From NCBI RefSeq assembly GCF_011455875.1, contig NZ_CP015031.1, forward strand, positions 1,469,405 to 1,533,404: DNA of 64,000 nucleotides, read 5' to 3'. The stretch's first letter is position 1. Each line of letters begins with the position of its first letter. This document shows, piece after piece, positions 15,647 through 24,851 of this stretch. Both the position numbers and the translations under genes were made by a program. The notes under the pieces are model-generated. The model ran no database searches. It was not told the origin of the DNA and saw only the letters and a program-made list of their open reading frames with translations. Source of the DNA: Basfia succiniciproducens (GTDB lineage: Bacteria; Pseudomonadota; Gammaproteobacteria; Enterobacterales; Pasteurellaceae).

Positions 15647-17866
<2,220 letters not shown>

Positions 17867-17867
<1 letters not shown>

Positions 17868-18460
17868 TACAGATTCTCCACAAAGTTTTTCAACAACTGC
17901 GCGCCGTTTTTGCCGGAACGTTCCGGATGGAACTGTACGCCGTAGAAGTTTTTACAGCCTAACGCCGCACTAAAAGGCACACCGTAATCGCTGGTGGCGA
18001 TGGTATGTTCATTCGGCAACACCGCATAGCTATGCACAAAATAGAAGTGGCTGTCTTGTTCGATACCGGCAAATAGCGGGTGATCCTGCTCGTAACGCAC
18101 TTTGTTCCAGCCCATATGCGGCAGCGGTAAACCCGTATTCGGGATTAAATCCGTATGCCCGCTCATCAGGCTTAGGGTCGGTACATTACCTTCGCTGGAA
18201 TACTCCGTCATCAGCTGCATACCTAAACAGATACCGAGCATAGGTTGAGTGGCGTTTTGGATGGTTTCAATTAAATTGCGATCTTGCAAGATTTTCATCG
18301 CCGCCATCGCAGTGCCCACACCGGGCAATAGCAATTTATCCGCTGATTTGATAGTTGCAATATCACGGCTAATTTCCGCTTTAATATTTAAGCGGTCGAA
18401 TGCAAATTTTACAGATGACAGGTTTGCACAGCCTGTGTCGATGATTACTAGGTTGGTCAT
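17867..18460 (-). CDS. hisH: Imidazole glycerol phosphate synthase, glutaminase subunit HisH
   Basis: HisH hydrolyses glutamine and passes ammonia to HisF. The 197-aa class-I amidotransferase has LLPGVGTAMAAM, catalytic Cys in MLGICLGMQLM (about residue 77) and the His/Glu pair in GVQFHPERSGKNG. The gene is intact, but 54 nt of its 5' end recur at 20538-20591. In related species such as Haemophilus hisH directly follows hisB; here they are 5.3 kb apart. Confidence 0.96.
18394..18447. repeat. att-like direct repeat, hisH-internal copy
   Basis: The first 32 nt (18394-18425, starting GTCGAATGCAAATTTTACAG) are identical to 20538-20569, and similarity continues with a few mismatches to about 18447. 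The repeat covers most of the first 22 codons of hisH. The second copy has the same orientation, so the 2.1 kb between them is flanked by direct repeats. Confidence 0.85.
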
Positions 18461-18472
18461 ATAAATATATCT

Positions 18473-19009
18473 TTATTTTAATTTACCTAATGCTTTTGCT
18501 GCATTTGGATTTTGGAATGCTTTTATAGTTTCTAACTGAATTTCAGCCTGAATTTTGGGATCTAACGGTAACTTAGATAAAATAGCTTTTTCAACTAAAG
18601 TAGTTAATGGTTCACCGATAGCTTTCCTAAAATTAAAGCCTAATAATTGTAGAATTATAAAAGTTTCTTTTGAAACCACAGGAGACAAAATTCTAACTAC
18701 CTCATCAACATTTCCACCAGTAGCTTTAGCTAAATCTTGTAATTTAGGAATTAACTCTTGCGTAATGTAGTCAATTTCTTTATCAGCAATTTTCTGAGCC
18801 ATTAGTTCTTGTTGGTAAGCTTGGGAAATTTGCAATAATTCATTTTTATCCGAAATTAATTCCTGAATAATTTCTTCTAATTCATTTATTGTTTCTTTAT
18901 CATCTTTTTTGGCTTTACTTGCTTTAATTTTCGTAAAAATAGCTGACGCCGTGTTTTTAACTAATGCTTCAGATAACTTAACACCTAAATCAATTAATTG
19001 CTGATCCAT
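18473..19009 (-). CDS. Orphan helical / coiled-coil protein of unknown function
   Basis: I do not recognise this family. Start ATG 19009 is preferred to an upstream TTG at 19024 because GGAGA sits about 8 nt upstream; this gives 178 aa (MDQQLIDLGVKLSEALVKNT...). The sequence is Lys/Glu/Leu-rich and looks all-helical. A probable coiled coil spans roughly residues 35-85 (NELEEIIQELISDKNELLQI), and a more hydrophobic segment is FIILQLLGFNFRKAIG. There is no signal peptide or clear catalytic motif. Codon use is visibly more AT-rich than the his genes. It ends 12 bp upstream of hisH and lies between the hisH repeat copies, which suggests acquired cargo. Confidence 0.7.
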   Translation of the reverse strand: MDQQLIDLGVKLSEALVKNTASAIFTKIKASKAKKDDKETINELEEIIQELISDKNELLQISQAYQQELMAQKIADKEIDYITQELIPKLQDLAKATGGNVDEVVRILSPVVSKETFIILQLLGFNFRKAIGEPLTTLVEKAILSKLPLDPKIQAEIQLETIKAFQNPNAAKALGKLK

Positions 19010-19082
19010 ATAAACTTTCTCCAATTACAAGCGGTCAAATTCCCCAAAAACTTTGCAAAATTTCACCGCACTTCTATATTTA

Positions 19083-19120
19083 AAATCTCCCCCAACCCCT
19101 CTTTACAAAAGAGAGGAGCT
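19083..19120 (+). repeat. Intergenic repeat (ATCTCCCC...CCCCTCTTT type), copy A
   Basis: The sequence reads ATCTCCCCCAACCCCTCTTT followed by ACAAAAGAGAGGAG, with an internal hairpin CTCTTT/AAAGAG. The same element occurs inverted at 20375-20411 and in this orientation at 27343-27379. Copies A and B bracket IS copy 2. A USS (19065-19073) lies just to the left. Confidence 0.65.
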
Positions 19121-19161
19121 AATTCAAGGAGCTCATACTCAATTCGACTTGTAGTGGTCAA

Positions 19162-19947
19162 CTAATTTAACAGTCTCCGATAAGTTGTTTTTGCTAAAAT
19201 CGGAGATAGACCTTGATTATAGCTATGTGGGCGAATGTGATTATAATACATCACATATTCTCTCACATCATTTACAGCACTTTCAAAATCACTATAACCA
19301 CCTTTCAGCATCCATTCATATTTAAAACTTCGAAACCAACGCTCCACCGGCGCATTGTCCCAACAGTTACCACGACGGCTCATACTTTGTGTAAGCCCAT
19401 GTTTCTTAACTGAATCAGTAAAGATTTCACTGCCATAAATACTACCTTGGTCTGAATGGAACAACATTCGCTCCGTGCGTTCAATATTCAGCATCGCATG
19501 ATTCAGTGCATCTTTAACCAGCTCACTATCATGATAGCGACTTAGCTTCCAACCGACGACTTGACGATTTAATAAATTAATTACCACTGCTAAATAGCAC
19601 CATATCCCATTGATTTTTATATAGGTCGTGTCACCACATAGCACGGTCGTTTGGCTATCAGGCGTAAATTCTCGACTTAGTATATTCTCAAAAACTTGAC
19701 TGTTTCCTTTACTAGGATTGCGCCATTTTTGCGGTTGCTTACTAAATAATCCTTGCTTATTCATTAACTTACGAATTAAATACAACCCCACAAAAATACC
19801 TTTCTCTTTCAAATGCGATTGAATCGTTCGTTTGCCTGCTGAACTTCGGCTTGCATCAAAAATTGCCTTGATTTCAACGGCTAAAGCTGTGTGTTTCGCT
19901 GGCTTTTTGGCTGTGCGCAAATGGGCGTAGTAAGCACTTTCAGACAC
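19162..19947 (-). CDS. IS3-family transposase OrfB, copy 2
   Basis: The 261-aa protein is identical in sequence to the OrfB of copy 1, with the same DDE residues (CGDTTY, HSDQGS, APVERW). It is read from GTG 19947 or, more likely, as an OrfAB frameshift product via the slippery site at 20043-20049. No stop or frameshift mutation is present, so the element should be functional. Confidence 0.95.
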   Translation of the reverse strand: MSESAYYAHLRTAKKPAKHTALAVEIKAIFDASRSSAGKRTIQSHLKEKGIFVGLYLIRKLMNKQGLFSKQPQKWRNPSKGNSQVFENILSREFTPDSQTTVLCGDTTYIKINGIWCYLAVVINLLNRQVVGWKLSRYHDSELVKDALNHAMLNIERTERMLFHSDQGSIYGSEIFTDSVKKHGLTQSMSRRGNCWDNAPVERWFRSFKYEWMLKGGYSDFESAVNDVREYVMYYNHIRPHSYNQGLSPILAKTTYRRLLN

Positions 19948-19985
19948 GCTAAATAGCTCACATAACCGGTTGATTCCTCGCGATT

Positions 19986-20300
19986 TTAACGTCGTAATGA
20001 CTTGGTATTTTTGTTTTCGAGTGACATTAAAATCGCTGTAGCCTTTTTTAAAATGGCCTTATCTTCTTCAAGTTCTTTAATACGATTTTCAAGTTCTCGA
20101 ATTCGTTGTTGTTCTGGGCTAATTGGCTTTGAACCAGCTAAAACGTAACCTTGTTGCTCCGCTTGAACTTGACTTATCCAGCGACGAAGTGCTGTTTCAC
20201 CCACACCTAACTCTCGGCAAGCTTGAGAAACTGAATATCCTCGTTCAGTCACTAATTTTACTGCTTCAGCTTTATATTCTGCGCTAAATGTTCTTCTCAT
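19986..20300 (-). CDS. IS3-family transposase OrfA, copy 2
   Basis: The 104-aa helix-turn-helix/leucine-zipper protein is identical to OrfA of copy 1. The start lies 67 bp inside the IS end. The slippery sequence AAAAAAG on the minus strand is at 20043-20049, in the right phase for a -1 shift into orfB. Confidence 0.95.
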   Translation of the reverse strand: MRRTFSAEYKAEAVKLVTERGYSVSQACRELGVGETALRRWISQVQAEQQGYVLAGSKPISPEQQRIRELENRIKELEEDKAILKKATAILMSLENKNTKSLRR

Positions 20301-20374
20301 AATATTTCCTCATTTGTGATGTTATTTTATCACTTATTGAGGACTGCGGAATTAGTCTACCACTACAACTATTT

Positions 20375-20411
20375 ATCCCCCTCTTTAGAAAAGAGGGGTT
20401 AGGGGAGATTT
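20375..20411 (-). repeat. Intergenic repeat (ATCTCCCC...CCCCTCTTT type), copy B
   Basis: Its complement reads AAATCTCCCCTAACCCCTCT followed by TTTCTAAAGAGGGGGAT. This is the same element as 19083-19120 and 27343-27379, inverted relative to them. It lies 4 bp outside the ACT duplication of IS copy 2. Confidence 0.65.
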
Positions 20412-20528
20412 GATAGCGATGTTAATTTCGCTTTAATCAAATTACAACCCCGTTGGCGCAAGCGTCCTTGCTTGTGCCTAAACCAATTTTTCAGTCCAAT
20501 CGTAGACGCTTGAACTATCTGTTATTTC

Positions 20529-20591
20529 TTACAAACTGTCGAATGCAAATTTTACAGATGACAGGTTTGAACAGTTTGTGTCGGTGATCAT
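20529..20591 (-). pseudogene. Remnant of hisH 5' end (second att-like repeat copy)
   Basis: On the minus strand an ATG (20591) opens a 20-codon frame MITDTNCSNLSSVKFAFDSL before a stop. The true HisH N-terminus is MTNLVIIDTGCANLSSVKFA, so DT-C-NLSSVKFAFD is shared. At nucleotide level 20538-20569 is identical to 18394-18425. The remnant begins 2 bp after the lipoprotein gene stop, which probably marks the former junction of that gene with hisH. A product of this mini-frame would have no HisH function. Confidence 0.85.
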
Positions 20592-20593
20592 AG

Positions 20594-21362: not shown

Positions 21363-22115
21363 TTAACACTCCGCTTCATCGGGGGATTTCGGTTTAGGTG
21401 GCAACATACGTTTGTGATGAGAACGGTTGTGCCAGAAACGAATTTGTTGCAGCGCCTGCGGGCTAACGGTTTCGCCGCGCAGATAAGCGTCGATTTCCGC
21501 ATAAGTAACGCCCATTTCAGCTTCGTCCGTTTGTCCTGCCCATAAACCGGCGCTCGGTTTTTTATCCAGCACGCTTTGCGGTACGCCAAGATAACGTCCG
21601 AGTTCAAATACCTGCTCTTTGCGCAATCCCGCTAAAGGCAGCACGTCCGCCGCACCATCGCCGAATTTGGTAAAATAACCCGTCAGCCATTCCGCCGCAT
21701 TATCGGTGCCCAACACAATAGAACGATGGCTTTGTGCCGTGGTAAACAGCGCAATCATACGCAGTCTTGCCATTAAATTGCCCTTTAATACGTTAATGCG
21801 CTCCGGTTCGGAATTTAATACCGGGGAAAGTTGTTGCATAATTAAATCGTACCAAGGCGCAATGGAAATTATTTGTCCGTCAATACCGGCGCTTTCCAGT
21901 GTGGCTTGCGCATCCGCCACATCTGACGGACTGGTTACTTCGGCGGGCAAAATTAAGGCTTGTACCGGTGCGCCGGTGCGCGCTACCAAATGAGCGCAGA
22001 CGGCGCTGTCAATACCGCCGCTGACGCCCAGCGTATAGCCGTCCATACCGTAAAGTTCGGTTCGTTGGTTTTCCAGCCATTGAATTAAATAATCTGCGTA
22101 TGCTGCCGTTTTCAT
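21363..22115 (-). CDS. nadE: NAD synthetase, ammonia-dependent type
   Basis: NadE amidates deamido-NAD to NAD using ATP and ammonia. At 250 aa it lacks a glutaminase domain. The PP-loop LGVSGGIDSAVCAHL is near residues 28-42; further segments are GTDNAAEWLTGYFTKFGDG, DVLPLAGLRKEQVFELGRYL shortened by family use, and KKPSAGLWAGQTDE. The start overlaps the pncB stop by 4 bp (ATGA), so the two are translationally coupled. Confidence 0.93.
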   Translation of the reverse strand: MKTAAYADYLIQWLENQRTELYGMDGYTLGVSGGIDSAVCAHLVARTGAPVQALILPAEVTSPSDVADAQATLESAGIDGQIISIAPWYDLIMQQLSPVLNSEPERINVLKGNLMARLRMIALFTTAQSHRSIVLGTDNAAEWLTGYFTKFGDGAADVLPLAGLRKEQVFELGRYLGVPQSVLDKKPSAGLWAGQTDEAEMGVTYAEIDAYLRGETVSPQALQQIRFWHNRSHHKRMLPPKPKSPDEAEC

Positions 22116-23551
22116 TCTTTTTTCCCCGAATGCCGTTCAATCAGATGTTGTTTTAGCGTCCATAAATCCTGCGATAAATCCACATAATAACCGTGAGGTT
22201 TTTCCAACCGGCGGACTTCATTCCAAAGCGATTGTAATTCCTGTCGGCAATGCGCACGGCTCTCTTCCAGTGTCGGTATGGTCAGCTGTTTTTCCCCTTG
22301 CGAAATCCATTGCTGCAATTTTTGTTCCGCAACAAAATCCGTCACCCATTTGGTTTTCCAGGTATATTCCGGGTCAAACAACATATAAGGTTTAGTACTA
22401 TCAATGATTTCATCATGTAAGGTAATCACATCGGCGATCGCTTTGTGATTTTTATCATACAGGCGCCACAAATTTTTAAAGCCCGGTGTAGTGGTTTTTT
22501 GCAAGGTCTCGCTAAGTTTAATTTTCGGAATAATCCGCCCTGCGTTTTCCAGCGCAACAATCTTATATACGCCGCCGAAAACCGGTTCGCTTTTTGCGGT
22601 AATCAACCGTTCGCCTACACCAAAACTGTCGATTTTCGCCCCTTGCAGCAACAAATCTTTAATCAGATATTCGTCAAGGGAATTGGATACGGTAATTTTA
22701 GTTTCCGTAAGCCCCGCCGCATCCAGCATTTCTCTCGCCCGAATACTTAAATAGGCTAAGTCGCCGCTATCAATACGGATACCTTTCAATTTATAGCCCC
22801 GTGGCGCCAGATATTCGCGATGAACCCGTATTGCATTAGGAATGCCTTGATGCAACGTATCATAAGTGTCCACCAGCAACACCGTGTTATCGGGGTAAGT
22901 TTTGGCATATTGCAGAAAAGCTTCGTATTCATTATCGAAACTTTGTACGTAAGCATGAGCCATCGTGCCCAAAGCGGGAATACCGCAGGCAAAATCGCTG
23001 TACACATTGGACGTACCGTCTACACCCGCAATATAGGCTGCACGAGCCCCGAAATGGGCGGCATCAACGCCATGCGCACGGCGCGCACCAAATTCCAGCA
23101 CATTACGTCCTTGTGCTACACTCACTATACGCGCCGCTTTAGTGGCAATCAGCGTTTGATGATTCAACGTCAGTAATAAAAAGGCTTCAATCAGGGTGCA
23201 ATCAATAATCGGCGCACGGATCACAACAAGCGGTTCGGCAGGAAACACCGCCGTACCTTCTTTCACCGCCCACAGATCACCGCGAAAACGAAAATGACGC
23301 AGATAATCCAGAAAACCTTCTGAAAAAATCTGTTTTTGTTGTAAAAAGGCAATTTCCTGCTCGCTGAAATGTAAATTTTCCAGATAATCCAGTAATTGCT
23401 CCAACCCGGCAAAGACCGCATAACCGCCCTCGTCCGGCACCCGTCGGAAAAAATAGTCAAAATAGGCAATTTCATCTTGTCTGCCCTGCTCAAAATAACT
23501 GTTCGCCATAGTCAGAGCATAAAAATCCATCAATAATGCACTGTTTTGCAT
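22112..23551 (-). CDS. pncB: Nicotinate phosphoribosyltransferase
   Basis: PncB joins nicotinate and PRPP to give nicotinate mononucleotide. At 479 aa it belongs to the larger class, not the roughly 400-aa enterobacterial PncB. Typical segments are LLMDFYALTMANSYF at the N-terminus, EFGARRAHGVDAAHFGARAA near residues 155-174, GTSNVYSDFACGIPALGTMA, VLLVDTYDTLHQGI, GIRIDSGDLAYLS and FGVGERLITAKSEPVFGGVYK shortened here to its core. AAGGAGG precedes the ATG. With nadE it supplies two steps of NAD salvage; NadD would be needed elsewhere. Confidence 0.93.
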   Translation of the reverse strand: MQNSALLMDFYALTMANSYFEQGRQDEIAYFDYFFRRVPDEGGYAVFAGLEQLLDYLENLHFSEQEIAFLQQKQIFSEGFLDYLRHFRFRGDLWAVKEGTAVFPAEPLVVIRAPIIDCTLIEAFLLLTLNHQTLIATKAARIVSVAQGRNVLEFGARRAHGVDAAHFGARAAYIAGVDGTSNVYSDFACGIPALGTMAHAYVQSFDNEYEAFLQYAKTYPDNTVLLVDTYDTLHQGIPNAIRVHREYLAPRGYKLKGIRIDSGDLAYLSIRAREMLDAAGLTETKITVSNSLDEYLIKDLLLQGAKIDSFGVGERLITAKSEPVFGGVYKIVALENAGRIIPKIKLSETLQKTTTPGFKNLWRLYDKNHKAIADVITLHDEIIDSTKPYMLFDPEYTWKTKWVTDFVAEQKLQQWISQGEKQLTIPTLEESRAHCRQELQSLWNEVRRLEKPHGYYVDLSQDLWTLKQHLIERHSGKKE

Positions 23552-23753: not shown

Positions 23754-24851
23754 TTACAACACGCCCTTACTGCTCGGCATTTCATTTCCTTCGATTTTAA
23801 TCGCCTGGCGCAAAGTTCTGCCGAAAGCTTTAAACAAGGCTTCGATTTGATGGTGAGCATTGTCGCCTTTAACGGATAAATGCAAGGTTGCAAGCAAGGT
23901 ATAGGCAATAGACTGGAAAAAATGCTCCGTCATTTCGGTGCTGAAATCGCCCACTTTGTCACGATTGAATTTCGCTTTGAATTTGAAATACGGGCGACCG
24001 GATAAATCCAGGGCGCATTCCGCTTTGCATTCGTCCATAGGCAGCACAAAACCAAATCGCTGAATACCGCGCTTATTGCCGATAGCCTCTTTTAACGCCG
24101 CGCCCAGTGCCAATGCGACATCTTCGATGGTATGGTGATCGTCAATATGCAAATCGCCTTTGCAGCTGACATTCATGCGAAACCCGCCATGAGTAGCGAT
24201 TTGATCAAGCATATGATCAAAAAAACCGATACCGGTATTAATTTGATTCACCCCGGCTTCATCCAACCAGACTTCCACTTTGATGTCGGTTTCTTTGGTT
24301 TTGCGAGCCACAACGGCATGACGCGGTTGACCTAAACCTTTCGGATCCGCCACAGGTTCCCGTAATAATTTTTCGGCGATCATATCCCAGTCTAAATTTT
24401 CCGGATGATACTGCAATGCGCGAATACCCAGATTTTCAGCCAGTTGAACGTCTGTCGCCCGATCGCCGATAACAAAGCTGTCTGCGGGATCAAATAATTT
24501 TTTATCAATGTACTTTTTCAACAATTTAATTTTCGGTTTACGGCAATCACAGTTGTCTTCCGGCTTATGCGGGCAGATTAAAATATCATCAAATTCAATG
24601 CCTTGCGAACGAAAAACAGCTAACATGGCATTATGCGGCTTATCAAAATCTTCCTGCGGAAATGAATCCGTTCCCAAGCCGTCTTGATTCGATACCATCA
24701 CAAAACGATAACGATTTTTTAATTTGAGCAACGCCGGAATCACATTACGTTCGAATTTGAGCTTTTCTAAACTGTCAATTTGAAAATCGGTTTTCGGCTC
24801 GTCGATTAACGTGCCGTCACGGTCGATGAATAGGGTTGGTTGTTGAGTCAT
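23754..24851 (-). CDS. hisB: Bifunctional histidinol-phosphatase / IGP dehydratase HisB
   Basis: HisB performs two steps of the histidine pathway. The N-terminal HAD phosphatase has [12 protein letters not shown] near residues 8-19 and the zinc Cys/His cluster [14 protein letters not shown]. The C-terminal dehydratase (from about residue 172) has [31 protein letters not shown] and [15 protein letters not shown], with the Mn-binding His/Glu motifs. The 365-aa fusion is normal for gamma-proteobacteria. It is the last his gene before the 5.3-kb interruption. Confidence 0.97.

Follow-up and report, generated by a model that had tools for sequence, protein, structure and literature searches.

Homology-facilitated illegitimate recombination has been proposed as the origin of the stacked T6SS immunity-gene arrays of Vibrio cholerae (Kirchberger et al. 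2017, PMC5361080). In these arrays a new module is added beside a conserved anchor without loss of the old one, and part of the displaced gene is left between the two (PMC5361080). In another described system (PMC5635113, 2017), gene turnover is high between two fixed core genes, mobile-element genes are absent and recombination tracts reach into a flanking gene. Integron gene-cassette arrays consist of single-gene, co-directional cargo added beside a fixed point. All of these features recur between hisB and hisH in the histidine operon of the Pasteurellaceae, several of which are known to be naturally transformable (PMC7811141, PMC5809987). No description of the hisB-hisH slot was found in open-licence papers.

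The window analysed here, a stretch of 64,000 nucleotides from Basfia succiniciproducens (NZ_CP015031.1, 1,469,405 to 1,533,404), carries a direct repeat of the hisH 5' end, which an initial annotation, made from the letters alone, took for the att-like borders of a small integrated element. Comparison across the family points to another origin. The hisB-hisH interval is probably an integrase-free slot for the exchange of cargo genes, in which homologous recombination acts at hisB and hisH and homology-anchored illegitimate recombination occasionally stacks one cargo upon another.

Results

The hisH repeat in the window

A repeat search aligned the inner copy (Table 1) with 20533-20588 at 89% identity over 56 nt, both copies having the same orientation, and a whole-genome search found the repeat at these two places only. 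The repeat claimed for the hisH 5' end was thus real. Its exact 32-nt core had been placed correctly at 20538-20569 in the outer copy, while the inner core, given as 18394-18425, was one base off and lies at 18395-18426. The outer copy was also detected with nhmmer, the query being the hisH 5' profile of the family. Read on the minus strand from 20591 down to 20529, and with the two preceding letters, it is CT ATG ATC ACC GAC ACA AAC TGT TCA AAC CTG TCA TCT GTA AAA TTT GCA TTC GAC AGT TTG TAA, which bears out the earlier reading of a HisH remnant that ends in a stop.

Table 1. Features of the hisB-hisH interval in the window (window coordinates)
Feature	Position	Strand	Evidence or remarks
hisH, intact present copy	17867..18460	-	GATase Pfam match; HisH relatives in 135/140 family genomes
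Inner repeat copy, hisH codons 6-24	18390..18445	-	repeat search
Newer cargo gene ('orphan'), 178 aa from ATG, directly 5' of hisH	18473..19009	-	relatives in 5/140 family genomes
Left arm of dispersed inverted-repeat element split by the IS	19083..19116	.	inverted repeat; paired copies elsewhere in genome
IS, rve transposase and HTH_Tnp_1 orfA	19151..20368	-	Pfam rve, HTH_Tnp_1; terminal inverted repeats
Right arm of the same element	20378..20411	.	inverted repeat; paired genome copies
Outer repeat copy, putative hisH 5' relic, 20 codons, TAA at 20529-20531	20532..20591	-	nhmmer E = 5.5e-11
Older cargo, lipoprotein gene, 178 aa	20594..21130	-	relatives at hisH in L042, L150; upstream of orphan in L077
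nadE, further hisB-hisH cargo	21363..22115	-	pncB-nadE behind hisB-side half of his operon in G044/L122
pncB-like phosphoribosyltransferase gene, further hisB-hisH cargo	22112..23551	-	as for nadE
hisB, upstream anchor of the slot	23754..24851	-

The lipoprotein gene stops 2 nt before the outer copy, and the orphan gene stops 12 nt before the present hisH. Of 84 filled slots in the family, 69 had the last cargo stop no more than 30 nt upstream of hisH, so that both copies in the window stand at positions where a hisH start is expected. From its sequence and position, the outer copy is best regarded as the fossil of an earlier hisH start and the inner copy as part of the hisH now in use. The relic was 85% identical to its own hisH and 90% identical to the best other hisH; its length does not suffice to show that it is another allele, to date it or to assign it to an allele. 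A hisB fragment was sought beside the window relic and none was found.

The insertion sequence between the two copies was flanked by an ACT target duplication (19148-19150 and 20369-20371). With its orfA, rve-type orfB, inverted ends and 3-bp duplication, it resembles the IS3 family, shows nothing unusual for that family and is independent of the hisH repeat. The genome contained 11 near-identical full-length copies, which suggests recent activity. It had landed in one copy of a dispersed inverted-repeat element, either MITE-like or terminator-like, whose arms measure about 34-38 nt and which occurs several times in the genome, the other copies including 871002-871245, 1550844-1551015 and 1762617-1762737. 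The view that the IS arrived as a separate event with its own duplication is supported; the intergenic repeats noted beside it exist and proved to be the arms of this interrupted element.

The two cargo genes adjacent to hisH starts

The orphan gene had been so called in the initial annotation, and the name did not survive, since four further Pasteurellaceae genomes carry close relatives. Among 140 Pasteurellaceae genomes searched, the family lay directly upstream of hisH in all five carriers: Nicoletella, Bibersteinia, a MAG labelled Lonepinella, Avibacterium endocarditidis and the window (loci other than the window: L050, L069, L070 and L077). The initial annotation had proposed a search for the gene between hisH repeats elsewhere; the gene adjoins hisH in these genomes, and in other species cargo genes stand at hisH without any flanking repeat. 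Among 369 genomes drawn from the class, the window itself was the only match, and no relatives were found in phage or viral-contig collections. Distant plasmid relatives (37-42%) occur in Enterococcus faecium and Clavibacter, without hisH; the latter sits among hypothetical genes and the former adjoins type I restriction genes, a neighbourhood that gives a weak hint of a defence role. The protein had no match in Pfam, PADLOC or NCBIfam, and its AlphaFold2 model had a pLDDT of 48.7.

Relatives of the lipoprotein gene were found upstream of hisH, adjoining it or close to it, in L042 and L150. In Actinobacillus porcinus (L042) the gene directly adjoins hisH, an arrangement that the initial annotation had proposed to look for. 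In Avibacterium endocarditidis the order lipoprotein-orphan-hisH is the same as in the window, with a frameshift in the lipoprotein gene.

The hisB-hisH slot across the family

The hisH loci were collected from the GTDB r220 collection and the 140 family genomes, one genome per species, and gave 107 distinct loci, in 101 of which hisB could be placed upstream of hisH. DNA was present between the two genes in 93 of the 101 Pasteurellaceae loci, mostly a single gene, and the slot was empty in the other 8. The slot spans some 40 genera of the family and its proteins formed at least 52 clusters, 25 of them single. Outside the family, the hisB-hisH gap was 142 nt or less in 27 of 27 hisH loci, all of them empty. 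Judged from these sequences, nearly every Pasteurellaceae species has a different gene at this place, which marks the interval as a gene-swapping slot.

Two loci, L061 and L074, were kept among the 107 for their family-type his genes. Their records are titled Moraxella cuniculi and Pseudomonas stutzeri and contain Pasteurellaceae-type his loci with cargo, which may mean that the records are mislabelled or contaminated, or that the operon was transferred as a whole.

When a junction was counted as filled at 300 nt or more (loci L040-L091), hisB-hisH was filled in 43/50 loci, hisH-hisA in 40/53, hisF-hisIE in 29/52, hisC-hisB in 17/47 and hisA-hisF in only 2/53. In the window, a MOSC-domain gene (17166-17867) lies between hisH and hisA, and in L192 and L193 a MOSC gene lies upstream of hisH; cargo may therefore move between slots.

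Many of the cargos appear defence-like from their domain matches. Slot clusters matched the YhcG/DUF1016 nuclease (14 loci), DUF817 (9), putAbiC (5) and GNAT (5) in Pfam, as well as HNH_5, HEPN/RES, CAP12/Pycsar TIR, PIN_12, VapBC, AlbA_2, DUF6037, MOSC and acyltransferase families; there was also a weak BanI-like match, and one protein combined DUF4357 with a weak GIY-YIG match. PADLOC named PDC-S02, PDC-S35 and PDC-S64 and returned the AlbA protein as a pAgo-associated match. Among the window slot proteins and 39 cluster representatives, Pfam gave no integrase or recombinase, and the only transposase was that of the window IS. Uptake sequences were no denser in the slot (0.68 per kb) than elsewhere (0.69 per kb), although 54 of 76 lay no more than 200 nt from the stop of hisB. 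By HisB, the window is closest to L195, whose slot is almost empty (about 62 nt) and consists of a paired uptake-sequence-like palindrome.

Turnover and imported tracts

The label of the gene adjoining hisH changed at least 71 times on a 95-locus HisB tree, compared with a mean of 79.8 and a minimum of 74 for shuffled labels, and the five loci of the orphan family accounted for five changes; these counts are rough, the tree being based on a single gene and partly unresolved. L155 and L171 were 79% identical in hisB, 94% in the cassette and 94% over hisH nt 1-50, after which identity fell to about 70%, and in the pairs L090/L184 and L169/L185 it likewise fell inside hisH. The drop places the end of an imported tract within the 5' part of hisH, and the alignments of the three pairs show recent transfer into the slot.

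The window operon itself looks mosaic. Its HisH is nearest to that of A. indolicus (90%), whereas its HisB is 82% identical to A. indolicus and 86% identical to L195 and L077.

hisH relics in other species

The hisH 5' profile was run over the slots and returned relics in the window, L057 (R. caecimuris), L120, L121 and L122, the last with two. A weak match in L136 starts a few nucleotides past a cargo stop, and a relic of about 20 nt in L070 was detected by eye. In all, six species besides B. succiniciproducens have a hisH relic between stacked cargos. The relics end at about hisH nt 23, 72, 75, 75, 131 and 194, a variability that argues against a site-specific recombinase.

Three of the relics continue into a duplicated 3' end of hisB, and the three hisH::hisB junctions differ from each other. 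In L121, the relic passes at a shared CCGCTT into a repeat of the terminal ~300 nt of hisB, behind which lie another cargo and hisH; the relics of L120 and L070 are fused to the last ~58 nt and ~52 nt of hisB, respectively. The two hisB pieces of L121 are 94.5% identical and its two hisH starts are identical over the first 47 nt.

The L057 relic was 64.5% identical to its own hisH and 85.5% identical to the hisH of other Rodentibacter. The cargo gene that precedes this relic adjoins hisH in R. heidelbergensis (L082), and the one that follows it does so in L053 and L108. Old and new hisH alleles are distinguishable in this species and their ancestry is incongruent.

The stack in L122 (genome G044) has the order hisB-cargo-relic-GNAT-relic-pncB-nadE. 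The his operon of this genome is split, with the two dead hisH starts near hisB (L122 4576-9294) and an intact hisH 1.2 Mb away (L123).

Discussion

Origin of the stacked arrangement

In the exchange slot proposed here, a donor fragment consisting of the hisB 3' end, a cargo gene and hisH would usually pair homologously in both anchor genes and give a clean swap of cargo. Stacking would follow when homologous pairing is confined to the hisH side and the fragment's other end enters the 5' end of the recipient hisH by an illegitimate join. The old cargo would then be retained, with a brief inactive start of hisH behind it, and after this would come the new cargo and a complete hisH. The window would formerly have had the order hisB-pncB-nadE-lipoprotein-hisH; the orphan gene would have come with a new hisH start, leaving a relic of 60 nt behind, and the IS would later have entered the intergenic repeat between the relic and the orphan gene. 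This order of events, and natural transformation as the route, are what we infer, the latter from the biology of the family; the slot and its turnover, the relics with their variable breakpoints, the hisB fragments and the incongruent ancestry of one relic are seen in the sequences themselves. The view of the initial annotation that DNA from elsewhere entered at the start of hisH and regenerated the 5' end of the gene is supported. Points against the exchange-slot reading are the lack of a hisB fragment behind the window relic, the shortness of that relic, the near-identity of the hisH copies and of the hisB pieces in L121, and an uptake-sequence density that is not raised in the slot.

The best of the other explanations is a tandem duplication of the segment from the hisB 3' end through the cargo to the hisH 5' end by unequal crossing-over, after which the cargo of one copy was swapped homologously. 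The close similarity of both the hisB pieces and the hisH starts in L121 speaks for it. It is nevertheless unlikely on several grounds: 1) the L057 relic is a poor match to the present hisH and resembles that of its congeners, 2) the cargos on either side of a relic are unrelated in all cases and 3) the window has no duplicated hisB piece. A plain tandem duplication of hisH, which the initial annotation had offered as its alternative, fits poorly for the first two of these reasons.

The hisH5'::hisB3' fusions of L070, L120 and L121 are also exactly what a Campbell-type insertion would yield, in which a circle carrying the hisB 3' end, cargo and the hisH 5' end is integrated by a single crossover in hisH, with the same final arrangement. 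Such a circle would have to be closed at an arbitrary point, the orphan has no match in phage or viral-contig collections and its distant plasmid relatives are not accompanied by hisH, so that this route is judged quite improbable. A small site-specific integrative element whose att site lay in the 5' end of hisH, although it would account for new DNA bounded by direct repeats and for the regenerated gene start, is highly improbable, since no integrase or recombinase was found among the slot cluster representatives scanned, apart from the window IS transposase, the relic end points vary around no fixed crossover core, most cargo lacks flanking repeats and some joins continue into hisB fragments.

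A broader proposal, and a doubtful one, is that the his operon is a selected docking site at which defence-like and accessory genes gain from a histidine-regulated transcript, its junctions hisC-hisB, hisB-hisH, hisH-hisA and hisF-hisIE, with hisA-hisF excepted, forming a family-wide cassette board filled by transformation.

If the exchange-slot reading holds, a puzzling repeat can be read as a record of the way in which chromosomes gain single genes with no mobile element involved; the relics would preserve the former allele of the anchor as well as the illegitimate junction. Because nearly every species keeps a different gene at the same place, the slot also offers a ready-made set of candidates for defence systems that consist of one gene, among them the YhcG-type nuclease, putAbiC, TIR, HEPN/RES, HNH, PIN, VapBC and many unnamed families.

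Comparison with known systems

Unlike the system of PMC5635113, the slot lies inside a biosynthetic operon, is the same in some 40 genera, usually holds a single gene and preserves what appear to be fossils of failed clean swaps. It differs from integron arrays in that no integron integrase was found among the slot proteins, the end points vary and mostly one gene is present. The V. cholerae arrays share with it the addition of a new module at a conserved anchor and the retention of the old one, and the stacks in the slot fit the mechanism proposed for those arrays. There, however, the displaced effector belongs to the exchanged module, whereas the anchor of the slot is a housekeeping gene that is needed intact, and the piece left behind is the 5' end of that anchor, sometimes fused to a piece of hisB.
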